Source of the DNA: Crossaster papposus
Taxonomy: Eukaryota > Echinodermata > Asteroidea > Velatida > Solasteridae
Length of the DNA stretch: 64,000 nt
Direction: 5' to 3'
Assembly: GCA_037893245.1 (NCBI GenBank)
Contig: JBAIAA010000261.1
Span: forward strand, 310,001-374,000
In this document: positions 2,931 to 38,085 of the stretch, one piece after another
Numbering within the stretch: the stretch's first letter is position 1
Layout: each line of letters opens with the position of its first letter
Notes under the pieces: model-generated
Databases searched by the model: none
Told to the model about the DNA's origin: nothing
Seen by the model: only the letters and a program-made list of their open reading frames with translations
Made by a program: the position numbers and the translations under genes

Positions 2931-3900
2931 GCCGGCACAGGCTAAGGTTTTGGACCCTCACCGAGCACAGGCTAAGACTTTGGACCCTTACCAAGGCACA
3001 GGCTAAGGCTTTGGACCCTCACCAAGGCACAGGCTAAGGCTTTGGACCCTCACCAAGGCACAGGCTAAGGCTTTGGACCCTCACCACGGCACAGGCTAAG
3101 GCTTTGGACCCTCACCATGGCACAGGCTAAGGCTTTGGACCCTTACCAAGGCACAGGCTTATTAGGCATTTGGACCCTCACCAAGGCAAAGGCTAAGGCT
3201 TTGGACCCTCACCAAGGCACAGGCTAAGGCTTTGGACCCTCACCAAGGCACAGGCTAAGACTTTGGACCCTCACCAAGGCAAAGGCTAAGGCTTTGGACC
3301 CTCACCAAGGCACAGGCTAAGGCTTTGGACCCTCACCAAGGCACGGGCTAAGGCTTTGAACCCTCACCAAGGCACAGGCTAAGGCTTTGGACCCTCACCA
3401 AGGCACATGCTAAGGCTTTAGACCCTCACCAAGGCACATGCTAAGAATTTGGACCCTCACCAAGGGCTAAGGCTTTGGACCCTTACCAAGGCACAGGCTA
3501 AGGCTTTGGACCCTCACAAAGGCACAGGCTAAGGCTTTGGACCCTCACCAAGGCCGTGTCCGAAACGGGCTTCCAGAGCTACGGCTACGTCTATTGTCAG
3601 CCTTCTCGCACGTAATTGTAATGGGCCAACACCTAGACAATAGCCTTAGACAAGAGATTCGGATGCGGCCTTAGGCACAGGTTAAGGCTTTGGTCCCTCA
3701 CCAAGGTACATGCTAAGACTTTGGACCCTCACCAAGGCACAGGCTAAGGCTTTGGACCCTCACCAAGGCACATGCTAAGACTTTGGACCCTCACCAAGGC
3801 ACAGGCTAAGACTTTGGACCCTCACCAAGGCACAGGCTAAGACTTCAGACCCTCACCAAGGCACAGGCTAAGGCTTTAGACCCTTACCCTCACCAAGGCT
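2931..3900. repeat. 31-bp minisatellite
   Basis: About 27-28 tandem units built on AAGGCACAGGCTAAGGCTTT plus GGACCCTCACC (31 bp). Units diverge by point changes (CACATG, AAGACTTT) and some are shortened. The array is split at about 3553-3673 by an unrelated insert. Open frames across it follow from the repeat, not from a gene. Confidence 0.92.
3553..3673. mobile_element. Small TIR insert inside the minisatellite
   Basis: About 120 bp of non-repeat DNA interrupts the array. Its ends form an imperfect inverted repeat, AGGCCGTGTCCGAA against TTCGGATGCGGCCT. The array resumes directly after it. The exact target duplication cannot be fixed, because the flanking repeat units themselves contain AAGG. 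Confidence 0.5.
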
Positions 3901-7442: not shown

Positions 7443-10115
7443 TTAATCATTTCCTAGTTGGATGTTAAGCCCATGTGGTTGAATAGTCCGAAGACGATTC
7501 ATCCAAACTTTCTCCCGGCTGAGGCGGACTGAGTCTTTCCGATGGCCAAGTGATTCTATGCCCTGAAGAATCATATCAGAAATGCAATGGTTAGGCTGGT
7601 TAAAGTGATGTCCTACAGGGGTATCCAGTTTCTTGGTGTTGACAGTCGATCGATGACCGTAGAAACGCTTTTTTAGGGCATTTTTGGTCTCTCCGACATA
7701 CTGAACTCCACAAAACCTGCAAGAGATGAGATATATGACATTAGATGTACTGCAAGTGATGTTACCAATAATTCTATGAGTAGTATCAGAAGAGTGGCCA
7801 GAAAAGGAGTCAGACTCCTGAATGTGGATCTGGCAGACCACACATCTAGAGCTGCACTTGAAAGTTCCGTGCTGGATGGGGGGAGATGCATCCAAGCTGG
7901 GAACTTTGGCTCGAACAATGAGGTCTCGTAGATTTTGAGGGCGTCTATAGGCCAATACAGGGCTGTCGGGGATGGCCCGGACAAGGCGATCTGAAGTGTG
8001 GAGAATGTGATGGCTGTCGTTGGTGATTTTGCGAAGGGAAGGGAGACTGGGGTGAAAGGTAGTCACCAGGGGGATCATGGGTTTGGCATTAGCCTGGGGG
8101 GCCTTTACCTTTAGAGCCAAATTTCTGGGTACGGCTTTGGCTCTGGCAATGGCACGTTGAACTTGGCGGGAACTGTGACCCCTGGCAACCAAGTTGTTCT
8201 TCAGTATGTGTGAATGGCGGGAGAAATCATAGTCGTTAGAACAAATCCTTTTGAGTCTGAGGGCTTGACTAAATGCTATACCAGTCTTACAATGCCTAGG
8301 GTGACAGCTGGAGGAGTGGAGATACTGGTGTGTGTCTGTGGGTTTAGAATACAGATCAGTGGTTATTAAGTTGTCCTCCTTGCGGATGGTGACATCCAGG
8401 AAGTGGGCCTGATGATGTGAGTACTCTGATGTGAACTTGATGGTCCTGTGGAAGGAATTCATGTGATTAGTGAAAGTCAGCAGACTGTCCTCATCACTGG
8501 TCCATATGAAAAATACATCATCAATGTATCTCCACCAGATCCAGGGACGGCACGGTGCTAAGGCAAGCATGCGTTCCTCGAGGTCACCCAAAAAGAGGCA
8601 TGCAAAGGAGGGTGCCATGCGAGTACCCATTGCAGTGCCATGTACCTGTAGATAGTGCTTATCTAGGAAGGAGAAATTATTCTTTGTTAGTACAAGTTTC
8701 ATGAGGGCGCGAATGTCACTTATGGGAGGGGTCGTGTGTCCTGCCCTAGCTAGGGTTATGGAACAAGCACGAATACCTTCTTCGTGTGGTATGTTAGTGT
8801 ACAAGGATGAGACGTCAAAGGTCCCAATGATGGCCGTTCTGGGAATCTGGTCCTTGATTCCTTCGAGCTTGCGCAGGAAGTCCGGGGTGTCATGGATGTA
8901 TGATGGAATCCTATGGACAAGGGGTTTAAGAAAACTGTCAATAAACATGGAGATGTGTTCCGTGGGTGAGCCATTACCCGAGACAATAGGCCTACCAGGG
9001 TTACCAGTCTTGTGAATCTTGGGGAGAAGATAAAACCTGGCAGTTCTACAGTCAGTGGGTGAAAGAAATTTGTGAGCTTTCTTTGACAGTTGGTCACGTG
9101 ATCGCATGTCATCAAGCAACTGCTGTATCTCTCGAGAGAATGTACCTGTGGGATCAGAGTCAAGGCAGATATAGTTAGTACGGTTGTCCAACTGACGGTG
9201 GGCCTCGTCGATGTACTGCTGACGATCCATGATGACCACGGCTGAGCCTTTATCAGCTGGCTTGATGATGATGTCAGTACGAGAACGCAAAGCAGCAAGT
9301 GCAAGGCGCTCTTCCCTGGGGAGGTTATCATGGGTCCTGTGGGGAAAGTTACCAGGGTTAGTGACTTGGGTATTGACAACTTGAACGTATGTTTCGAGAG
9401 CTGGTACACGATTCTTGGGGGGTACCCATGTGCTCTTGACACGGAAGGGTTCTGGGTCACAAGGGTCAGAATCAAGAAAAAACTCACGGAGACGGATCCT
9501 ACGATAGTATTCCGTGAGATCTTGGCTGAGCTGTACCTGGTTCACAGTACGGGGAGTGGGACAGAAGTTCAGACCCTTGGAGAGAAGTTTGTGTTCAGCA
9601 TCTGATACGGATGAGGAGGAAAGGTTAATAACAGTATTGGCAGGGGGTGTTGTCGATTGGGGCTTGGGACGTCTAAAACGTCTCTGTCTGTGCTGATGCT
9701 GCTTGGCAAGCAAGCCACCAATCTTCTTGTTTCTCCTGTGGATAAGAACAGAGTCAAGGTTAGATAGGCCCTTATCAATCTCACCATGGAATTCCCTGTA
9801 CCTAGTGTCTGTACAGCTGGATCTGAGTTCTGAGTCAAGGTGGGCTATATTCTGGTGGAGGTCCTGAAGAATAAAATGACACTGTTGAGAGAGGATATTA
9901 ATTAGTTTAACAGATGCACCATGCAGAACTTGATTCCACCTCCTTTGCAGGTGTGGTGAGAGGGTTCCTAAGCACGGAGAGGGAGATAGTTGCAAACCTT
10001 TAGGGATAAATCGAGAGAGGGAGAAGAAATTGTAGTTATCCTGATGGTAGGAGTAGCGAAGGGCCTTCTCCCTATTCTTTCTGAGCTGTTGGAAAATACA
10101 AATAGTGTTACTCAT
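7443..10115 (-). CDS. Penelope-like element reverse transcriptase with GIY-YIG endonuclease
   Basis: An uninterrupted 890-codon frame encodes the single protein of a Penelope-like retroelement. Visible landmarks, by approximate residue: PKIHK (~365), catalytic FDVSSLYTNI (~433), GTAMGTRMAP (~494), the YIDD active-site box (~530) and SKPTDTHQYLH (~590). A CxxxCxxC metal-binding cluster (~754) precedes the C-terminal GIY-YIG nuclease (IYL ~795, VQYVGET ~805, Arg ~818, a late Glu in SREKVWMNRL ~868). This gene class is related to telomerase and uses the GIY-YIG nuclease for target nicking. The start is the ATG directly after a consensus intron acceptor (intron 10118-10182). All catalytic residues I can check are present and no stop interrupts the frame, so this copy may be recent or still active. 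The C-terminus recurs as a fragment at about 56420-56545. Confidence 0.95.
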   Translation of the reverse strand: MSNTICIFQQLRKNREKALRYSYHQDNYNFFSLSRFIPKGLQLSPSPCLGTLSPHLQRRWNQVLHGASVKLINILSQQCHFILQDLHQNIAHLDSELRSSCTDTRYREFHGEIDKGLSNLDSVLIHRRNKKIGGLLAKQHQHRQRRFRRPKPQSTTPPANTVINLSSSSVSDAEHKLLSKGLNFCPTPRTVNQVQLSQDLTEYYRRIRLREFFLDSDPCDPEPFRVKSTWVPPKNRVPALETYVQVVNTQVTNPGNFPHRTHDNLPREERLALAALRSRTDIIIKPADKGSAVVIMDRQQYIDEAHRQLDNRTNYICLDSDPTGTFSREIQQLLDDMRSRDQLSKKAHKFLSPTDCRTARFYLLPKIHKTGNPGRPIVSGNGSPTEHISMFIDSFLKPLVHRIPSYIHDTPDFLRKLEGIKDQIPRTAIIGTFDVSSLYTNIPHEEGIRACSITLARAGHTTPPISDIRALMKLVLTKNNFSFLDKHYLQVHGTAMGTRMAPSFACLFLGDLEERMLALAPCRPWIWWRYIDDVFFIWTSDEDSLLTFTNHMNSFHRTIKFTSEYSHHQAHFLDVTIRKEDNLITTDLYSKPTDTHQYLHSSSCHPRHCKTGIAFSQALRLKRICSNDYDFSRHSHILKNNLVARGHSSRQVQRAIARAKAVPRNLALKVKAPQANAKPMIPLVTTFHPSLPSLRKITNDSHHILHTSDRLVRAIPDSPVLAYRRPQNLRDLIVRAKVPSLDASPPIQHGTFKCSSRCVVCQIHIQESDSFSGHSSDTTHRIIGNITCSTSNVIYLISCRFCGVQYVGETKNALKKRFYGHRSTVNTKKLDTPVGHHFNQPNHCISDMILQGIESLGHRKDSVRLSREKVWMNRLRTIQPHGLNIQLGND

Positions 10116-12027: not shown

Positions 12028-14952
12028 TCAGATGGCATGTCGGAGCTCTGATTTAAATGTGCTTAATGAGTCCAATGTTCGCAATTGTTCGGGCAGATTA
12101 TTCCAAATATTTGCACCACTCACAGCGAAACTTGTGGCGTAGCATTCTTTTTTGGCGAAAGGAACTTTCAGTGCCGTGTGGGTTGATTGCCTTGTTTCGC
12201 GAATTACTGTAAGTGGTTTGAAAATATTTGTCATGTACAAAGGAGTCATTTTGTTGATACTTTTGAAGACAAGAATAGCCTTTTTTGACTTGACTCTTTT
12301 TGAAAAAGGGGTCCAATTAAGACGAGCAAACATATCCTCTGAAGGGGTGAGGAAGGTACATTTAAGGATTATCCGCGCGGCTCTTTTGAGACATTTGTTT
12401 AACATATTATCGTGAGATATGTACCTTCCTCCCCACACAGTACAACAATACTCTAATGTTGGCATAACTAGACTTACAAATAGTGTGTGCAAGCTGTGCT
12501 GAGGAATACAATCACGGATTCTTCTTAGTATACCTAATTTAGACACCACATTTTTTCTTACGGATTCGACATGTGGGCCCCAACTTAATGCTTCATCAAT
12601 AATTACACCCAAACATTTATAAGACTTCACATTTTCAATACGACTACCAGCAATGCATACATTTAAATTAACATTAGATATTTTCTGCCTAGTACCAATG
12701 AGCATGCATTTGGTTTTGGTGGCATTTAAAGCTAGCTTGTTTCTTCCGCACCAGTTGTGAAAACTAGTAAGAGCTGTATTTAAGCTACTTTCTATTATAT
12801 TAATGTTGGAGGAGCTACACGTTAATGTTGAGTCATCTGCATACATAAATAAGTTGCAGTTTGGGGCAATACAAAATGGAAGGTCACTAGTATAAACAAT
12901 GAATAAAAGTGGACCTAGTATCGACCCCTGTGGAACACCAGTGTTTACGGACAGGACCTTTGATATGGTGCCGCCAATATTCACAGACTGACTACGTTCA
13001 CTTAGGTACGACTTAAACCAATTTATTACAGAAGATGACATGTTCATCCTTTCTAGTTTCTTTAGTAAGATTTCATGATCAACACAATCAAATGCTTTAC
13101 TGAGGTCTATAAACACACTGCCTGTAACTTGTCCATTCTCCATGGCCGCAAAACACTTGTTTGTTAAGTCATGTAGGGTGCTTTCAGTTGAGTGCAGGGG
13201 TCTAAATCCCGACTGGCAACTAGGAATCAGATTGTTTTCATCAAGATATCTATATACCGATGAGTGCACCCATCTTTCTAAAATCTTAGAGATAATTGGC
13301 AGTATAGAAATTGGACGATAGTTACCTGTACTACATTTATCTCCTCCCTTGTGAATTGGTGTTACTAAAGCATGTTTCCAATCTTTAGGGTATCGCTCAC
13401 ATCTTATAGACAGGTTAACAATATGAGTTAAAGATTTAATGATATAAGGTGAAGCAATTTTAATCATTTTAACACTAATTCCATCCGGACCTGTTGCTTT
13501 CCCAACCGACATGAATGATATTTGCTTTCGAACAAACTCTTCTGTAATGTTAGGTACTACGCAATCTTCATCAACAGAATCAAATATAGAGGCGTCAGTA
13601 TTGTCATCTATTTCAAGTTCACGCAAAGGGTAATTTCCAGCAGTACGCTTGCCGATTGTTGAAAAGTGTTCATTTAATGTATCAGCAATGTCGGCGATAT
13701 TGTCAATATTTTCCCCATTTGGGGAAGTAATCGAATTTGGTACAGTTTTTTGTTTCTTAGGGAGTACCTCCTTCAGAGTTTTCCACAGCATAGAAGAGTT
13801 GCTTTTATTTTCTTCTATGGCGGATGTGTAGTAATTACTCTTTTTACTGCGGATTTTATTAGTAACATTGTTCCGCAGGTTTTTGTATGAATCCCAATGA
13901 ATTTGTAAGCCTGTGTGCTTTGCAATTTTGTGTACACGATCGCGCTGCCGCATAAGTTTAAGAATTTCGCTATCGAGCCACGGTACTGAGGCACCCCGAA
14001 TGCGTTTGGTTTTGACTGGCGCATGGAGGTTAATAATACTCATAAATATGGAGTACCATATAGACCATGCATTATCCACATCATAACAACCAAAAACATC
14101 TTGCCATGGTGCATTACGGAGATCGTCCGTAAATGCATCACTGTTTATATTTTTTAGACATCGAAAATTTATTGAACGACCTTTCATTTTTGGTGTTTTC
14201 CAACTGTGTAGCCCATAAACAAGATAATGATCACTGATTAGGACTGGTAAAACACCACAGTCCTTTATGAGCTCTGGGTGGGAACTAAAAATGAGATCGA
14301 TGGTAGTTTTAGTAGATTCAGTGACACGTGTTGGGTCATGTATGAGTTGCGCCATTTGGAACAAACTAAAGCAAGAAATAATTGGATTTGATTGCATACT
14401 ATCGTATTCCTCTGAAACATCACAATTAAAGTCCCCAGTTGTAATAATTTCTTTACATTCACACGAGGCCTTATTAAGGATATCACTCAGTTTTCCCATA
14501 AATTCGACAGAGCTTGAAGGAGGCCTATAAATAGAACTGATAAGCACAGGCTGTCTTTGTTTGCACTTAATTTCAACCCATATACACTCGACATCATATA
14601 TTTCGAGATCTTCACGACGAGAGAACATTAGGGTATCTCGAATGTAAATTGCAACACCGCCACCATGTCGGTTCCTGTCTTTTCTGACAATAGAATAATT
14701 TGGTAGAGTTATTTCGTCATCAGAGATTGAGGCGTCGCAAAAAGTTTCGTTTAGACAGATGATGTCGAATGGATTTTTAGACATTACAATCTTAAAATGG
14801 TCAAATTTGTTTATGAGGCTTCTTACATTAAGATGGGCGAATGAGAAACCCTCGGAACTTTGATTGCAGATAATACCATCTGTTATGTCTATTTTAGAAC
14901 CTTGCCTTGTGGGTTGAGCAGCTCCCTGACCATTTTCAGATGTTGGTTCCAC
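12028..14952 (-). CDS. LINE-A ORF2: APE endonuclease and reverse transcriptase
   Basis: An uninterrupted 974-codon frame of a non-LTR retrotransposon (CR1/Jockey group). The N-terminal endonuclease shows AHLNVRSLINK (~40), LNETF (~67), IYRPPSS (~140), GDFNCD (~165) and SDHYLVY (~240). The RT shows GKATGPDGIS (~480), YRPISILPIISKILE (~545), DLSKAFDCVDH (~612), GVPQGSILGPLLF (~675) and the YADD catalytic box (~705). The C-terminus has the CR1-like ANIWNNLPEQLR segment. The chosen ATG follows a short non-coding leader; an overlapping frame at 14889-15134 may be a remnant of ORF1 or leader sequence. Intact catalytic residues suggest recent mobility. It lies inside the TIR element 11631-16262. Confidence 0.95.
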   Translation of the reverse strand: MEPTSENGQGAAQPTRQGSKIDITDGIICNQSSEGFSFAHLNVRSLINKFDHFKIVMSKNPFDIICLNETFCDASISDDEITLPNYSIVRKDRNRHGGGVAIYIRDTLMFSRREDLEIYDVECIWVEIKCKQRQPVLISSIYRPPSSSVEFMGKLSDILNKASCECKEIITTGDFNCDVSEEYDSMQSNPIISCFSLFQMAQLIHDPTRVTESTKTTIDLIFSSHPELIKDCGVLPVLISDHYLVYGLHSWKTPKMKGRSINFRCLKNINSDAFTDDLRNAPWQDVFGCYDVDNAWSIWYSIFMSIINLHAPVKTKRIRGASVPWLDSEILKLMRQRDRVHKIAKHTGLQIHWDSYKNLRNNVTNKIRSKKSNYYTSAIEENKSNSSMLWKTLKEVLPKKQKTVPNSITSPNGENIDNIADIADTLNEHFSTIGKRTAGNYPLRELEIDDNTDASIFDSVDEDCVVPNITEEFVRKQISFMSVGKATGPDGISVKMIKIASPYIIKSLTHIVNLSIRCERYPKDWKHALVTPIHKGGDKCSTGNYRPISILPIISKILERWVHSSVYRYLDENNLIPSCQSGFRPLHSTESTLHDLTNKCFAAMENGQVTGSVFIDLSKAFDCVDHEILLKKLERMNMSSSVINWFKSYLSERSQSVNIGGTISKVLSVNTGVPQGSILGPLLFIVYTSDLPFCIAPNCNLFMYADDSTLTCSSSNINIIESSLNTALTSFHNWCGRNKLALNATKTKCMLIGTRQKISNVNLNVCIAGSRIENVKSYKCLGVIIDEALSWGPHVESVRKNVVSKLGILRRIRDCIPQHSLHTLFVSLVMPTLEYCCTVWGGRYISHDNMLNKCLKRAARIILKCTFLTPSEDMFARLNWTPFSKRVKSKKAILVFKSINKMTPLYMTNIFKPLTVIRETRQSTHTALKVPFAKKECYATSFAVSGANIWNNLPEQLRTLDSLSTFKSELRHAI

Positions 14953-19027: not shown

Positions 19028-19090
19028 GTAAAGTCAGGCTTGTTTACTTCTGACAAAAGCTCACTGTCGGGAAAAGACAGAGTTGTATTC

Positions 19091-20530
19091 AAGTCCTTTT
19101 ACAAGTCCTTTTACAAGTCCTTTTACAAGTCCTTTTACAAGTCCTTTTACAAGTCCTTTTACAAGTCCAGTCACAAGTCCAGTCACAAGTCCAGTCACAA
19201 GACCAGTCACAAGTCCAGTCACAAGTCCAGTCACAAGTCCAGTCACAAGTCCAGTCACAAGTCCAGTCACAAGTCCAGTCACAAGTCCAGTCACAAGTCC
19301 AGTCACAAGTCCAGTCACAAGTCCAGTCACAAGTCCAGTCACAAGTCCAGTCACAAGTCCAGTCACAAGTCCAGTCACAAGTCCAGTCACAAGTCCAGTC
19401 ACAAGTCCAGTCACAAGTCCAGTCACAAGTCCAGTCACAAGTCCAGTCACAAGTCCAGTCACAAGTCCAGTCACAAGTCCAGTCACAAGTCCAGTCACAA
19501 GTCCAGTCACAAGTCCAGTCACAAGTCCAGTCACAAGTCCAGTCACAAGTCCAGTCACAAGTCCAGTCACAAGTCCAGTCACAAGTCCAGTCACAAGTCC
19601 AGTCACAAGTCCAGTCACAAGTCCAGTCACAAGTCCAGTCACAAGTCCAGTCACAAGTCCAGTCACAAGTCCAGTCACAAGTCCAGTCACAAGTCCAGTC
19701 ACAAGTCCAGTCACAAGTCCAGTCACAAGTCCAGTCACAAGTCCAGTCACAAGTCCAGTCACAAGTCCAGTCACAAGTCCAGTCACAAGTCCAGTCACAA
19801 GTCCAGTCACAAGTCCAGTCACAAGTCCAGTCACAAGTCCAGTCACAAGTCCAGTCACAAGTCCAGTCACAAGTCCAGTCACAAGTCCAGTCACAAGTCC
19901 AGTCACAAGTCCAGTCACAAGTCCAGTCACAAGTCCAGTCACAAGTCCAGTCACAAGTCCAGTCACAAGTCCAGTCACAAGTCCAGTCACAAGTCCAGTC
20001 ACAAGTCCAGTCACAAGTCCAGTCACAAGTCCAGTCACAAGTCCAGTCACAAGTCCAGTCACAAGTCCAGTCACAAGTCCAGTCACAAGTCCAGTCACAA
20101 GTCCAGTCACAAGTCCAGTCACAAGTCCAGTCACAAGTCCAGTCACAAGTCCAGTCACAAGTCCAGTCACAAGTCCAGTCACAAGTCCAGTCACAAGTCC
20201 AGTCACAAGTCCAGTCACAAGTCCAGTCACAAGTCCAGTCACAAGTCCAGTCACAAGTCCAGTCACAAGTCCAGTCACAAGTCCAGTCACAAGTCCAGTC
20301 ACAAGTCCAGTCACAAGTCCAGTCACAAGTCCAGTCACAAGTCCAGTCACAAGTCCAGTCACAAGTCCAGTCACAAGTCCAGTCACAAGTCCAGTCACAA
20401 GTCCAGTCACAAGTCCAGTCACAAGTCCAGTCACAAGTCCAGTCACAAGTCCAGTCACAAGTCCAGTCACAAGTCCAGTCACAAGTCCAGTCACAAGTCC
20501 AGTCACAAGTCCAGTCACAAGTCCAGTCAC
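19091..20530. repeat. 12-bp satellite array, 120 units, in MKK7 intron 2
   Basis: Six units of AAGTCCTTTTAC (19091-19162) are followed by 114 units of AAGTCCAGTCAC (19163-20530). The only variant I see is AAG-ACCAGTCAC near 19200. It starts 63 bp after the exon 2 donor. Because 12 is a multiple of 3, long open frames run through it on both strands (SSHK, TSPV and VTGL repeats); none is a gene. The near-perfect homogeneity implies recent expansion or concerted exchange. Confidence 0.97.
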
Positions 20531-20535
20531 AAGTA

Positions 20536-22393: not shown

Positions 22394-22460
22394 TCGGGAG
22401 ATTGAGAGAAAGCTGCAGGAAATCATGCGGCAGACCGGCAAACTGACCGTGGATGGAAGA
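22394..22460 (+). CDS. MAP2K7: MKK7 exon 3 (pre-kinase helix)
   Basis: Acceptor CTCGTAG, donor GTAAGT. It encodes REIERKLQEIMRQTGKLTVD then GR (residues 95-116), close to the vertebrate IEIDQKLQEIMKQTGYLTIGG segment just before the kinase fold. It ends in phase 0, as the P-loop exon copies require. Confidence 0.93.
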
Positions 22461-22999: not shown

Positions 23000-23102
23000 A
23001 TTTATTGAGATACAATGTACAGTGTATGTACATGCAATCAATATTACTACACCTCAAAATATTCATGAGCAAATGGGAGCGCGTCAATGACCGATTCTGT
23101 GT

Positions 23103-23487
23103 GCGTCCGGGAAGTACAAATGATACGCTGTCAGGTGACGTCATCCCGGTGAGTATCCAGCTCGTTGCCGTGCGGTATTTGTTTCTGGTAGCACCAAACA
23201 TTCCCTCTGGAACCTGCCTCGTAGACATGTAGTCTATCTGTGGCATGTAATCTTTACGGAACCAGTCTCGGTAACGTTACTAGATTTCCGTCATTGACTG
23301 ACGAAGAACTTGAATATCTTGTGCTGAATAAAGATGTAAAATCTACGAAGGCCGTTATCGAAAAGGCAGTGAATATGTATGAGGTGTAGTAAAACAAATA
23401 CAGCATGGTTTATTTCTGGAAAATAGTGGGAAATTACTGGTCCCTGGGACCAGTAATCCCCACTACTTCCCTTCAAACCATGCTGTA
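23103..23487. repeat. Dispersed repeat supplying the exon-array linkers
   Basis: It starts GTCCGGGAAGTACAAATG and continues through TGACGTCA (23136-23143) and GGTGAGTATCCAGCTCG to a hairpin ending ACCATGCTGTA. A second full copy follows the P-loop array (33104-33495), and its first ~65 bp are present between each pair of exon copies. A 34-codon frame (23285-23386, FPSLTDEELEYLVLNKDVKS...) resembles the start of tyrosine-recombinase (Crypton-type) proteins; that resemblance is tentative. Confidence 0.7.
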
Positions 23488-31399: not shown

Positions 31400-32160
31400 C
31401 AATCAGTAACAATTATATCCATATGACATTGCAAAGTTGCAAAGAATTCAAAATTCTGCTGCCAGGCTTCTCACACGCACTAAATATCGGGACCACTTAC
31501 AACCAGTGCTATATAACCTGCATTGGTTGCCTGTTGCCCAGAGGATCGACTTCAAAATCTTGCTACTCACCTATAGAATCTTGAATGAGCTTGCACCAGT
31601 CTACCTAAATGAGATTGTCACAAAATACCAACCTAGTCGTAGTCTCCGGTCATCATCACAACACCTCCTACGCCAACCAGCGCGAGGACGCACTGCTTAT
31701 TACAGTGATCGTGCCTTCTCGCTCTCAGCTCCAAGGCTCTGGAACAATCTGCCGCCCCACATTCGTGACTCCAATTCACTGGAGCATTTTAAGAATATTC
31801 TTAAGACACATCTCTTCAACATTGCTTTTAGTTAGATATCTGTTTTAATTCATTAACGTATTCTTTTCGTTGTTTTTGAATGTTGTTTTTAATTAAGTTA
31901 CGTTTGTGTTTAATACGTGTCAATTAATTAAATACTAGTATTTTGTGCCATTATAGGTGACTTTTGCCAATTTTAAATTAAATTAAATTAAATTAAATTA
32001 TCATCTTTGAAGCATTAGATTTTAACTACCAAATTTTTACCACAAGAATATTTTATCATGCTAATCAATGTTTTATTTTCTGACCTATGTACAGCGCTTT
32101 GAGGCCTTTTAATTAAGATGAAAGGCGCTTTATAAGTAATTTTTATTATTATTATTATTA
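31400..32160 (+). pseudogene. L2/CR1 LINE 3' fragment
   Basis: 5'-truncated. A 132-codon frame (31437-31835) encodes the RT C-terminal segment: RIQNSAARLLTRTKYRDHLQ, LYNLHWLPVAQRIDFKILLL and APRLWNNLPPHIRDSNSLEH. The 3' end is AAAGGCGCTTTATAAGT and an ATT repeat at about 32145-32160. Same orientation as LINE-C, on the other side of the exon array. Confidence 0.88.
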
Positions 32161-32296
32161 TAAAAAGCCAATTTATATTTAAAACAGTAAAACAAGATTC
32201 GGTTAAATTTCCTGTCATTGGAACAGGAGCCCTAAAATATTTAAACTGTTTGCATAACACTGATTATAATTGGTGTCATTTTGGTGTCATTGCCAG

Positions 32297-32410
32297 CGAG
32301 TGCCTTTCAACATAGACTCACTGGAAGCAATAGACGAGCTGGGGTTTGGCAGCTGTGGGCACGTAATACGAATGAGACACAAGGAAACGAGAACCATCGT
32401 TGCCGTCAAG
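32297..32410 (+). CDS. MAP2K7: MKK7 exon 4, copy a (P-loop and VAVK), intact
   Basis: Acceptor TCATTGCCAG, donor GTACGTAC. 114 nt, 38 codons, phase 0 at both ends: RVPFNIDSLEAIDELGFGSC then GHVIRMRHKETRTIVAVK. It carries the glycine-rich loop (GFGSCG) and the ATP-anchoring Lys, so every active isoform needs exactly one such exon. It is the first of four tandem copies and the only one whose upstream intron is not derived from the dispersed repeat. The acceptor lacks a strong pyrimidine tract. Confidence 0.93.
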
Positions 32411-32515
32411 GTACGTACAAAATATAGCTACACGCGCGTCCGGGAAGTACAAATGATACGCTGCTAGGTGACTTCATCCCGGTGAGTATCCAGCTCGCTG
32501 CCGTGTCATTGCCAG

Positions 32516-32630
32516 TGAGTGCCTTTCAACATAGACTCACTGTAAAGCAATAGACGAGCTGGGGTTTGGCAGCTGTGGGCACGTAATACGAATGAGACAC
32601 AAGGAAACGAGAACCATCGTTGCCGTCAAG
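32516..32630 (+). pseudogene. MAP2K7: MKK7 exon 4, copy b, broken
   Basis: 115 nt. The first codon is TGA instead of CGA (a CpG transition). The segment CTG-GAA-GCA has become CTG-TAA-AGCA, giving a second stop and a +1 insertion. The 3' three-quarters and the donor are otherwise identical to copy a. If spliced in, it would truncate the kinase before its P-loop. Confidence 0.92.
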
Positions 32631-32735
32631 GTACGTACAAAATATAACTACACGCGCGTCCGGGAAGTAACAATGATTCACTGCCAGGTGACGTCATCCT
32701 GGTGAGTATCCAGCTCGCTGTTGTGTCATTGCCAG

Positions 32736-32849
32736 CGACCGCCTTTCAACATAGACTCGCTGGAAGCAATAGACGAGCTGGGGTTTGGCAGCTGTGGGCA
32801 CGTAATACGAATGAGACACAAGGAAACGAGAACCATCGTTGCCGTCAAG
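32736..32849 (+). CDS. MAP2K7: MKK7 exon 4, copy c, intact alternative
   Basis: 114 nt, phase 0, differing from copy a by Val2 to Pro (CGA-CCG for CGA-GTG) and a silent TCA/TCG change. Splice sites match copy a, but its upstream sequence (acceptor side) comes from the dispersed repeat. It could replace copy a in transcripts, or both could be included as a 38-residue duplication of the P-loop. Whether it is used cannot be seen from sequence. Confidence 0.85.
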
Positions 32850-32956
32850 GTACGTACAAATTATTACTACACGCGCGTCCGGGAAGTACAAATGATACGC
32901 TGCCAGGTGACGTCATCCGTGGGTGAGTATCCAGCTCGCTGCCGTGTCATTGCCAG

Positions 32957-33075
32957 TGAGTGCCTTTCAACATACCGTAGACTCACTGGAAGCAAAAGAC
33001 GAACTGGGGTTTGGCAGCTGTGGGCACGTAATACGAATGAGACACAAGGAAACGAGAACCATCGTTGCCGTCAAG
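32957..33075 (+). pseudogene. MAP2K7: MKK7 exon 4, copy d, broken
   Basis: 119 nt. The first codon is TGA, and a 5-bp insertion (CCGTA) after AACATA shifts the frame. There is also an Ile to Lys change (GCA-AAA). The downstream P-loop and VAVK codons survive, but not in the frame required from exon 3. Confidence 0.92.
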
Positions 33076-33097
33076 GTACGTACACAAAATAACTACA

Positions 33098-33495
33098 CAT
33101 GCGACCGGGAAGTACAAATGATTCGCTGCCAGGTGACGTCATCCGTCGGTGAGTATCCAGCTCGCTGCCGTGCGGTCTTCATTTCTGGTAGCACCAAACA
33201 TTCCTTCTGCAACCCGCCTCGTAGACATGTAGTCTGTGGCATGTAATCTTGACAGAACCAGTCTTGGTAAGGGTAATAGATTTCCATCATTGACTGAAGA
33301 AGAACTTGAATATATTGTACTGAATAAAGATGTAAAATCTACAATCTACATTAATTTGTACAATCAACAAGACAGTTAATATTTATGAGGTGTAGGTCAG
33401 CTCGACTACCTCCCTCTGCTTCTGGATGTAGTCAAGCTGACCTACACCTCGGGCCCAGTAATTCCCACTACTTCCCCTCAAACCATGCTGTATTT
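33098..33495. repeat. Second copy of the linker-type dispersed repeat
   Basis: It aligns with 23103-23487 from CCGGGAAGTACAAATGATT through TGACGTCA (33134-33141), TCTGGTAGCACCAAACATTC and TTGAATATATTGTACTG to AACCATGCTGTA. The 34-codon frame of the other copy is broken here after VLNKDVKST. A different hairpin (GGTCAGCTCGACTAC / GTAGTCAAGCTGACC, 33397-33450) occupies its right part. Confidence 0.7.
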
Positions 33496-33507
33496 TGTAT
33501 ACAATAG

Positions 33508-36498
33508 AAGTCTGCCAAACGGCAGACTTCTATTCCCCCCATTATAACAGACAGAAATGTCCATCACTGGGCTCATTGTCACCGTAATCGTGGAGTTAAC
33601 CTGTCTAATTTGAAACAAGTGGCTAATTCCTATATACCACCTCCTACATCCCTTAATGCTTGTTTATGGAACATTCATTCTGCCGCTAATAAATCCGTTC
33701 AAATTGCGGATTATGTTGAAGAACATGATATTGATTTGTTGATACTGACAGAGACATGGCTTCGTGATAATGATACAGTCATCATCGGGGAGTTGACACC
33801 TCCTGGATACTCGTACCTTAATGTACCTCGCCCCTCTGGTACCCGCGGTGGTGGAATTGGAATTGTCTCCAAAACCTTTCTCAAACTGCGTCAGATCCCA
33901 CAAGAACGGCATACCACGTATTTTGAAAGTGTATGCGCCACTGATTCCGCCAAGCATTTGAACCTTGTTGCTATTTATAGACCACCCCCGTCTCCTGCGA
34001 ATGGCTTCACAACATCTGATTTTTTGAATGAATTTGACTGTTTTGTTGATGACATATCTTTATGCCCTGGAAAACTGCTACTTGTTGGCGATCTAAACAT
34101 CTACTGGGATGATCAAAACAGAAGTGACGTCAAGCAGTATGCCTCCATTATATCATCTGCCAACTTGCAACAACATATTGGCACTCCCACCCACCAACAT
34201 GGACACATATTAGACCATGTTTTGTCATGTCCTGATGACAACCTTGTTAGTGATTGCAGTGTTCATCAAAACCTGTTGTCTGATCACCATAGCGTTCTTT
34301 TCAAAGTTAATCTTCCAAAGCCTTTGCCTCAGCGAATCAAACAAACTGTCAGGAACTACAAGACTATTAATGCTGAGCAATTTTCGGAGACTTTAAATCG
34401 CAAACTGAATCCTGTCCCAGCTATGAACAATGTTGATGATTTGTTTAGTTGGTATATTTCGGAAACGTCTGAATCTATTGACCAATTTGCACCTTCTTCT
34501 ATTCGTACCCGCTCTATCAGAACCCGTATGCCATGGTATAATGACCATGTCCACGTTGCTCGCCGTGAACGACGTAGAGCTGAAAGAAAGTGGCAACAGA
34601 CTCGTACAGATGAAGATCGTGATCTCTTTGTGACCAAGAACAATGAAGTTAAAACCTGCATCTTGAAAGCAAAGCAGTCATATTTTTCTAACAAGCTTTC
34701 AAATGCTGATAACAAAACGATTTTCAGTACTGTAAACATTCTGCTGAATAAGCAATCCAAACATCTTCCTGCTCATGATGACCCCAAGGAACTGAGTAAG
34801 AAATTTTCCAAGTTTTTTGTTTCCAAGATCCGCAAGATTCGCGATGGCTTGGAAAGCAATGTGCGTGAAGCGAGCCTAAATGGTAATCTTCCTGATGACA
34901 CATTCCCCAGCATCTGTACCCCCATGACTAATTTTCACACCTTTACAGAAGAGGCGGTGATGCGTGTCATCTCAAAATCATCCAATGCATCCTGTCTTCT
35001 TGACCCCCAACCCACGTGGTTGCTCAAGGAACACATACGGCATCATCTCCCTGCATTGACTGCTATTGTTAATGCTTCCTTAACATCTGGGGTGTTTCCC
35101 AAGTCAGCTCACCATGCCGTTGTTACACCGTTACTCAAGAAGCCCTCCCTTGATGAGGACAATCTTCAAAATTACAGACCTGTCAGCAATTTAATGCACT
35201 CGGCCAAGATCATTGAAAAATGCGCCGCAGTTCAGCTTATACAACATCTGAATACCAACAAACTCACAGACCCCCTCCAGTCCGCATATAAAGCTATGCA
35301 TAGCACAGAGAGTGCACTTATCAAAGTTACAAAGGACATCATCTCTGAAATGGATTCTAAGAGAGTGGTGTTGATGGTGTTGTTGGATATGAGTGCTGCT
35401 TTCGACACTGTAGATCATAACATCCTCTTAAGTCGACTTGAAAAGCGTTTTGCTGTAACTGGTGTCGCTCTCAAATGGGTTGCATCATATTTGCAGGGGT
35501 GGTTAAGTCAAGTCAACATAGGAGGTCACCTGTCGGACCCATCTGTAGCTGATTTTGGAGTACCACAAGGATCAGTGCTCGGTCCCCTGACATTCACTAC
35601 CTACATTGCACCAGTTGGAGAAATTGCTCGAAAACACAATATAGACTATCATATATATGCTGATGACACTCAATTGTACACATCATTTAATCCTCGTGTG
35701 CCTGGTGATCTCGAAGCCTTTCTTACCACTCTTAACGCCTGCATATCTGAAATTCGTTCATGGATGTCAGTAAATTACCTCAAACTGAATGACTCTAAAA
35801 CGGAGTTTTTTGTGGCAGGTTCAACCTATAGTCTCAGACTCCTTCCTCCATTGAAACTCACTATTGGTACATCAAATATTAAACCTTCCGACATTATTCG
35901 AAACCTGGGAGTCTTCTTCAATTCAACTATGTCATTCTCAAATCTTGTCAACCGTCTCCGCCAAACCATCAACTTTCAAATCAAAAACTTATGGCGTATC
36001 CGTAGATTTATTGACATTGACACCTCCCACCATGTTGCGCGAGCTTTAATTACATCACGGCTCGACTACTGTAATGCCCTTTTCACTCACTTGTCGTCTA
36101 AAGACACTACTCGCCTTCAGCGTCTCCAAAATAGCGCTGCGAGGGCCGTTTATGCAGTTGGGAGAAGAGTTGAGGTGGCACCTTTACTGAACGAGCTCCA
36201 CTGGCTTCCAATCTCTAAGCGGATCCTCTTCAAAGTTTTGCTGTATGTTTTTAAATGTTTAAACAATCACGCCCCATTGTATCTTTCGGACTATTTCACA
36301 AAATATGCTCCAGCTCGCCCACTAAGATCCTCTATGGACTCCACCCGCTTGACTATGCCAAAAGTCAGTAACTCAGTATTTGCAGAAAAAAGATTCAATA
36401 TCATTGCTGTTAAGGCCTGGAATGGACTGCCTTCTGCCATCAGAGCTGCGCAATCTGTTGACAGTTTCAAGAAACTTTTGAAATCATATTTATTTTAA
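33508..36498 (+). CDS. LINE-C ORF2 (L2/CR1 type), 5'-truncated
   Basis: The frame is open from 33508 with no convincing ATG; the first conserved residues (HRNRGVNLSNLKQV) suggest truncation just before the endonuclease. From 33610 it spans about 962 codons. Endonuclease: LWNIHSAANK (~20), TETWL (~48), IYRPPPS (~120), GDLNIYWDD (~160), SDHHSVLF (~222). RT: NYRPVSNLMHSAKIIEK (~520), LDMSAAFDTVDHN (~595), GVPQGSVLGPLTF (~650), IYADDTQLY (~682). The tail segment is LNELHWLPISKRILFKVLL (~860). No internal stop, so probably young. The 3' end has AAAGCGTTCTAAATGCC and an ATT repeat to about 36592. Confidence 0.94.
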   Translation, partial: KSAKRQTSIPPIITDRNVHHWAHCHRNRGVNLSNLKQVANSYIPPPTSLNACLWNIHSAANKSVQIADYVEEHDIDLLILTETWLRDNDTVIIGELTPPGYSYLNVPRPSGTRGGGIGIVSKTFLKLRQIPQERHTTYFESVCATDSAKHLNLVAIYRPPPSPANGFTTSDFLNEFDCFVDDISLCPGKLLLVGDLNIYWDDQNRSDVKQYASIISSANLQQHIGTPTHQHGHILDHVLSCPDDNLVSDCSVHQNLLSDHHSVLFKVNLPKPLPQRIKQTVRNYKTINAEQFSETLNRKLNPVPAMNNVDDLFSWYISETSESIDQFAPSSIRTRSIRTRMPWYNDHVHVARRERRRAERKWQQTRTDEDRDLFVTKNNEVKTCILKAKQSYFSNKLSNADNKTIFSTVNILLNKQSKHLPAHDDPKELSKKFSKFFVSKIRKIRDGLESNVREASLNGNLPDDTFPSICTPMTNFHTFTEEAVMRVISKSSNASCLLDPQPTWLLKEHIRHHLPALTAIVNASLTSGVFPKSAHHAVVTPLLKKPSLDEDNLQNYRPVSNLMHSAKIIEKCAAVQLIQHLNTNKLTDPLQSAYKAMHSTESALIKVTKDIISEMDSKRVVLMVLLDMSAAFDTVDHNILLSRLEKRFAVTGVALKWVASYLQGWLSQVNIGGHLSDPSVADFGVPQGSVLGPLTFTTYIAPVGEIARKHNIDYHIYADDTQLYTSFNPRVPGDLEAFLTTLNACISEIRSWMSVNYLKLNDSKTEFFVAGSTYSLRLLPPLKLTIGTSNIKPSDIIRNLGVFFNSTMSFSNLVNRLRQTINFQIKNLWRIRRFIDIDTSHHVARALITSRLDYCNALFTHLSSKDTTRLQRLQNSAARAVYAVGRRVEVAPLLNELHWLPISKRILFKVLLYVFKCLNNHAPLYLSDYFTKYAPARPLRSSMDSTRLTMPKVSNSVFAEKRFNIIAVKAWNGLPSAIRAAQSVDSFKKLLKSYLF

Positions 36499-37185: not shown

Positions 37186-37305
37186 CAAATGAGACGGTCA
37201 GGGAATAAGGAGGAGAATAAGAGGATACTGATGGATCTGGAGGTGGTTCTCAAGAGTCATAACTGTCCCTTCATTGTGCAATGCCTGGGGGCCCTGGTCA
37301 ATCCG
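37186..37305 (+). CDS. MAP2K7: MKK7 exon 5 (alpha-C helix)
   Basis: Acceptor TTTTTCTACAG, donor GTAACA, phase 0 at both ends. It encodes QMRRSGNKEENKRILMDLEV then VLKSHNCPFIVQCLGALVNP (155-194), nearly identical to vertebrate MKK7. It must directly follow one intact exon 4 copy. Confidence 0.95.
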
Positions 37306-37679: not shown

Positions 37680-38085
37680 GAAACCCCGAGGTCCCCACCT
37701 CCCCCCCCCGGAACCCCGAGACTCCCTAAAGACCTCGAGTCCCCCCCAGGGACCTTTAGTTTCCCCAGGGACCTTCAGTTTCCCCAGGGACCTTCAGTTC
37801 TCCCAGAGACCTAAAGTTCCTCCAGGGACCTAAAGTTCCTCCAGGGACCTTCAGTTCCCCCAGGGACCTCGAGTTCTCCCAGAGACCTCGAGTTCCCCCA
37901 GAGACCTCGAGTTCCCCCAGAGACCTCGAGTTCCCCCAGAGACCTCGAGTTCCTCCAGGGGACCTAAAGTTTCCCCCGGGGACCTAAGTTTCCCAAGGGA
38001 CCTCGAGTTCCCCCCATGGACCTAAGTTTCCCAAGGGACCTCGAGTTCCCCCAGGAAAATTAAGTTTTCCCAGGGACCCTTCATT
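37680..38085. repeat. 19-bp minisatellite in intron 5
   Basis: Tandem units around CCCCCAGAGACCTCGAGTT, with variants GGGACCTAAAGTTTCC and GGGACCTTCAGTTCC. Roughly 20 diverged copies. Confidence 0.9.

Follow-up and report, generated by a model that had tools for sequence, protein, structure and literature searches.

A fourfold tandem P-loop exon array in the MKK7 gene of Crossaster papposus, probably nucleated by a mobile element

In a kinase gene of Crossaster papposus, the exon for the ATP-binding loop and the VAVK lysine is present four times in tandem, and the locus raises the question of whether the additional copies are used in splicing or are by-products of the event that made them. 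The window (the whole stretch of DNA analyzed, 64 kb) was searched using TRF and a repeat finder, and one head-to-tail array was found at 32284-33172 on the plus strand, with a period of 220, 4.0 copies, and 92% matches. The four units are 219, 220, 221, and 226 bp long, and their mean column identity after alignment is 94%. Each unit begins with 13 nt of native intron end, followed by an exon copy, approximately 17 nt of the native intron behind it, and a piece of a dispersed element. The exon copies start at spacings of 219, 220, and 221, with gaps of 105-107 nt between adjacent copies; repeat finding and exon coordinates thus bear out the fourfold P-loop exon at 219-221 bp spacing that had been read from the sequence earlier (the original prediction).

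All four exon copies are on the plus strand. Copy a (32297-32410; 114 nt, 38 codons, phase 0-0) carries the P-loop and VAVK, has native intron upstream, and is translated as RVPFNIDSLEAIDELGFGSCGHVIRMRHKETRTIVAVK. Copy c (32736-32849; 114 nt, phase 0-0) is open and differs from copy a by Val2 to Pro and one silent change (RPPFNID...); translation therefore confirmed that a and c are complete, in phase 0, and a single residue apart at position 2. Copies b (32516-32630; 115 nt, +1 shift) and d (32957-33075; 119 nt, +5) have TGA as the first codon when the proximal AG is used, and at that AG the defects described for them were found. The AAG/GTACGT donor and the CAG acceptor are present in 4 of 4 copies. 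Searching the genome (1.02 Gb, 1,841 contigs) with exon a and 10-nt flanks returned these four places only. A chance origin of the array is excluded, and the tandem exon duplication is confirmed as real, with adjacent, same-strand homologous exon copies within one gene.

The assignment of the gene to MKK7 was upheld by comparing a 71-aa catalytic segment (two exons joined) to solved kinases, where MKK7 chains came first (E 5.6e-39) and MKK4 had an E value of 6.6e-27. With a human MKK7 sequence as the query, nine further MKK7 exon matches were found on the plus strand, in the expected succession between 16924 and 56705; three of them are weak alone (E 0.01-0.03). Among these other exons, AG was present at 8/8 acceptors and GT at 8/8 donors checked. 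No match was obtained for the last MKK7 exon or for part of the N-terminal region. The preceding exon found (22394-22460, plus strand; VDGR/gtaagt) ends in phase 0, and the next exon (37186-37305, plus strand; QMRRSGNKEENKRILM) starts in phase 0. A genome search with the predicted MKK7 protein gave 47 matches (136 of 160 candidates scored), and those with >73% identity were all on contig C261. Neither a second MKK7 locus nor a haplotype copy with a single exon was found by exon DNA or protein genome searches. A retrocopy preserved as a fossil cDNA was likewise rejected, as there was no high-identity match and the long unbroken matches (25-32% identity) were other kinases. A search for relatives in viral contigs gave nine pattern matches, of which none was a relative.

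The source of the spacers was identified using the array as a genome query. The best 40 non-array matches scored, of 657 candidates, were approximately 50-80 bp long with 86-96% identity, and every one of them fell in the spacer, leaving the exon unmatched. A fuller copy of the element at 23041-23430 (plus strand), in the intron preceding the array, served as the reference; when used as the query, it gave 40 matches including itself (40 scored of 989 first-look candidates genome-wide). The fragment in unit a (32428-32505, plus strand) consists of the left tip CTACAC followed, after approximately 50 missing bp, by GCGCGTCC...CTGCCGTG. Equivalent fragments are present in units b, c, and d, the stretch kept after the gap in each spacer runs from GCGCGTCC to CTGCC, and the internal deletion of approximately 50 bp is common to all four units. 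Only unit d runs on into the right half of the element, which is present once, at 33170-33395 on the plus strand. The unit junctions show a 3-bp microhomology, GTG, which occurs both in the element (CTGCCGTGCGGTC) and in the native flanking sequence (TTTTGGTGTCATTGCC): the junction reads CTGCC-GTG-TCATTGCC, and the flanks read TTTTG-GTG-TCATTGCC and CTGCC-GTG-CGGTC.

The element family was aligned from 26 loci having an exact 16-base marker (of 36) and the 23-kb copy in the window. The short element is a possible MITE, with a high copy number and inverted ends CTACACCTCA / TGAGGTGTAG, but conservation extends past the right end in many copies. A 27-nt hairpin with 93% complementarity lies at 33387-33450, directly after the right half; similar sequence also trails the element in many family copies, and the true element is perhaps larger. 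A donor-like GTGAGTAT derived from the element is present in every unit (e.g., 32482-32489) as a second possible 5' splice site. The idea that the element habitually makes such arrays was rejected, as a tandem array (period 40-500) overlapped the matched stretch of the element in 0 of 36 loci (L003 and L063 are the same place). Arrays with a 130-bp period lie beside the element in 5 of the 36 loci (L004, L044, L046, L055, and L059), which suggests that the dispersed element frequently belongs to a larger one that carries repeats. Conversion of the spacers from other element copies was also discarded as the source of the spacer variants, as few or none of the 27 family copies have most of the states that are private to the array.

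Over 70 aligned element positions, spacers a to d have 3, 6, 2, and 5 differences from the family majority, and the mean divergence of the 27 family copies from the majority is 4.4% (the 23-kb copy is among them, and one place enters twice). In the single right half, 25 of 190 positions are different, compared to a family mean of 6.0%. From these differences, the insertion of the element seems older than that of a typical family copy. The array units have diverged about as far as family copies have from the majority, and the array, on this measure, is not brand-new. Copies b and d share the TGA (a CpG transition, possibly recurrent) and one spacer change, and c and d share a 2-bp insertion; because these shared changes conflict, no duplication tree is claimed for a to d.

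The reading that we prefer, with a probability of roughly 0.64, is a tandem exon duplication nucleated by the mobile element, in which copy a is the normal exon and copies b to d are by-products. We infer the following order of events. A short dispersed element would have been inserted approximately 17 nt behind the donor of a single MKK7 P-loop exon with the loss of approximately 50 bp from its left side. At the common GTG, a break or template switch may then have linked the intron, 13 nt upstream of the exon, to the middle of the element, duplicating the exon together with half of the element, and further duplication would have led to four units. As native intron sequence is retained upstream of copy a alone, this copy would be the normal and likely constitutive exon. 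The spliceosome would mostly ignore b, c, and d because element sequence takes the place of the branch point and tract; when used, these copies would usually give a truncated product, with c at the proximal AG being harmless. Conversion between neighboring copies may keep a part of the exon identical. The type of event is known, and seeding by a mobile element is its twist. Non-productive tandem exon duplications are known around dispersed repeats, with the repeat at the breakpoint and a microhomology junction; compared to these, the MKK7 array has four units and an unusually invariant core. If b to d are by-products, the locus is a snapshot of an element-seeded exon array before alternative splicing, with the broken copies still there.

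The acceptor regions bear on this reading. The 65 nt upstream of the copy a acceptor are AG-free, and copies b to d have upstream AGs at -22, -29, and -48 to -50. The original prediction that b and d keep their splice sites holds for the dinucleotides and fails for the surroundings: in b to d the native intron is limited to 13 nt upstream, and the remainder is element sequence with competing AGs. Tract scores were 0.94 for a, -3.40 for b, -1.41 for c, and -3.40 for d, and -1.82 to 9.02 for the eight other MKK7 acceptors, a small set on which the tract model was built. The acceptor of copy a scores under 7 of these 8, and copy c is only 2.4 bits under a and above the weakest constitutive MKK7 acceptor. 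As scored, the acceptor evidence favors a over b to d, with a itself being weak. Use of the AG at -22 brings b to a stop, puts c out of frame, and gives d an open in-frame stretch of 47 codons (start 32935); from an internal AG at +19, copy b gives an open in-frame exon of 96 nt. That each copy has some in-frame acceptor is true but was set aside as a signal, as this is easy by chance with 6 to 9 AGs scanned per copy.

Two features were missing from the original prediction, namely, the element that forms the spacer and an invariant core, which is the sole feature that might still argue for use of the copies. In copy a, the core extends over 81 bp (32339-32419, plus strand) and comprises 24 codons, the donor, and 9 nt of intron; its equivalents in b (32559-32639), c (32778-32858), and d (33004-33084), also on the plus strand, are identical to it. 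Among the 227 aligned columns of the array there are 27 variable events, 9 in the first part of the exon and 18 in the spacer; the 13-nt native lead and the 81-column run of the core are free of them. The chance of a run this long is 5e-5 with events spread evenly and 0.012 with neighboring events merged. Variation is alike in the spacer and the 5' part of the exon (18/85 and 9/48, P 0.82); at the spacer rate, approximately 17 events would be expected in the core, and none was observed. At the 17 silent sites of the core, 3.6 silent events would be expected and none was observed (P 0.027). These measures of core invariance were all made within the array. CpG content was rejected as the cause of the invariance, with counts of 6 in the core and 8 in spacer a. 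None of the 9 variable events in the first 42-47 nt of the exon is private to a, a weak signal, as the chance of this is roughly 10-18% with 6-8 independent events.

Dead copies would not be expected to share an invariant core, and its presence in all four counts against the by-product reading, as do the fully open frame of c and the weak acceptor of a with c close behind. Because b and d, when normally framed, escape selection at the protein level, the core would have to be kept by gene conversion or by a constraint on the core and donor in every copy. Short gene conversions between neighboring copies are the plainer reading and are assumed here.

For the consequences named in the original prediction (exclusive choice, a double P-loop, and poison-exon control), no support was found beyond the open and broken frames; inclusion of c and a poison-exon role are unsupported possibilities. 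The alternative that survives best, although unlikely, is that a and c are alternative P-loop exons, mutually exclusive or freely chosen, giving two MKK7 isoforms one residue apart. Copy c matches a in length, phase, and donor sequence and has an open frame, and FYN provides a precedent. The FYN tandem exons are numbered 7A and 7B. Duplicated exons over the ATP site of a kinase are thus already known, as FYN has tandem duplicated exons (FynB/FynT) over its ATP-binding site according to part of PMC9741552, and, like the MKK7 array, these span the N-terminal lobe of the kinase, ATP site included. As described there, however, FYN has one diverged pair with tissue-specific exclusive use, whereas MKK7 has four near-identical copies, two of which are broken at the native acceptor. 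In PMC3228551, mutually exclusive exons are characterized by near-equal length, sequence similarity, and a frame kept without an in-frame stop. The MKK7 copies are 114, 115, 114, and 119 nt long with 94% column identity, and the frame is kept in a and c and lost in b and d at the proximal AG. Against this alternative, the two isoforms would be almost the same, the in-frame acceptor of c must win over three upstream AGs within 50 nt, and three changes per 114 nt would easily leave a frame open by chance.

Pairing of the spacers with the right half of the element does not help the alternative use of a and c either, as it was not above that of shuffles (15 shuffles each). In a model set out in part of PMC6071210 for Dscam, 14-3-3zeta, and Mhc, competing pairings arise when an exon is duplicated along with a single stem-loop arm. 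The MKK7 array resembles these docking/selector clusters as described there in that an exon and a partial intronic element are duplicated, but, unlike in those clusters, its spacers have no excess pairing with the remaining half-element. The intron was also scanned for docking sites using 80-base windows in 40-base steps. No upstream window went beyond shuffles, and three downstream windows (35492, 33772, and 33732) scored slightly lower than any of 8 shuffles (best, -51.1 compared to -48.8), all three inside a retrotransposon ORF. Docking/selector pairing is therefore unsupported for the half-element, with the three retrotransposon windows slightly exceeding 8 shuffles. No match to any of 4,227 Rfam families was found at the gathering threshold in 32000-33500.

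Next in order, and also improbable, is poison-exon control, in which regulated inclusion of b or d (or of c via an upstream AG) would lead to message decay and set the MKK7 dose. The premature stop of a poison exon is found immediately when b or d is spliced at the proximal AG, copy c frameshifts from the AG at -22, and the core and donor are unaltered even in b and d. The acceptor regions of b to d are, however, poor and element-derived, and splicing of d at the AG at -22 keeps the frame, so that this copy is not necessarily poison. In U2AF1, as reported in part of PMC5224494, exons Ab and 3 have non-equivalent acceptors, and transcripts with both or neither are lowered by nonsense-mediated decay. 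The MKK7 array is like this pair in having a duplicated exon with unequal acceptors; by that account, U2AF1 has two coding copies retained through vertebrate evolution, whereas the MKK7 array has four copies, two of them broken.

The boldest reading, and an unlikely one, is a working splice device made by the mobile element, in which the core and donor would be kept, even in the broken copies, through exon recognition and not for one protein. The entry points would be the native AG in a and c, the AG at -22 in d, and, in b, the internal AG or use as a poison exon. If the extra copies are used, acceptors derived from the element would put a stress-kinase catalytic loop under splicing control, and the core would show an exon-recognition constraint separate from protein sequence.

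That the array is an assembly artefact of a single copy in the living genome is very improbable, as each copy has private substitutions and indels, the 0.9-kb array lies inside a 2.8-Mb contig with no N in the 64-kb window, and the junctions appear biological. Splicing of a and c (or more copies) together into MKK7 with a repeated N-lobe strand set is the least credible reading: both copies are in phase 0-0 and neighboring copies are 105-107 nt apart, but b would have to be skipped, and 38 extra N-lobe residues would probably unfold the kinase.

Among the papers listed on MKK7/MAP2K7 or ATP-site exons (titles and abstract starts), no MKK7 exon array appeared, in agreement with the original prediction that none was known. 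Tandem exon duplications are surveyed in PMC9013439.

The ORF noted above belongs to a non-LTR retrotransposon in the intron after the array (33610-36498, plus strand), which encodes an endonuclease and a reverse transcriptase in 962 uninterrupted aa and looks young. Elsewhere in the window, approximately 120 copies of a 12-bp unit (99% match) at 19090-20534 have long open frames on both strands, minisatellites are present at 2934-3888 (31-bp x 31) and at 37731-38055 (19-bp x 17), the latter between two MKK7 exons, and two long minus-strand ORFs are located at 7443-10115 (890 aa) and 12028-14952 (974 aa). The mitochondrial COX1 of the assembly fits genetic code 9 (AAA Asn, ATA Ile) at conserved positions, and among the mitochondrial ORFs, named by eye, nad2 and nad1 are reversed ahead of cox1, as would fit a sea star. 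In the assembly, contig C8 (>5.2 Mb; L033, L035, and L036) is possibly a bacterial chromosome of a symbiont or contaminant; it carries a COX1-like gene of 682 aa that is open by the standard code and a second COX1-like gene in two adjoining pieces.
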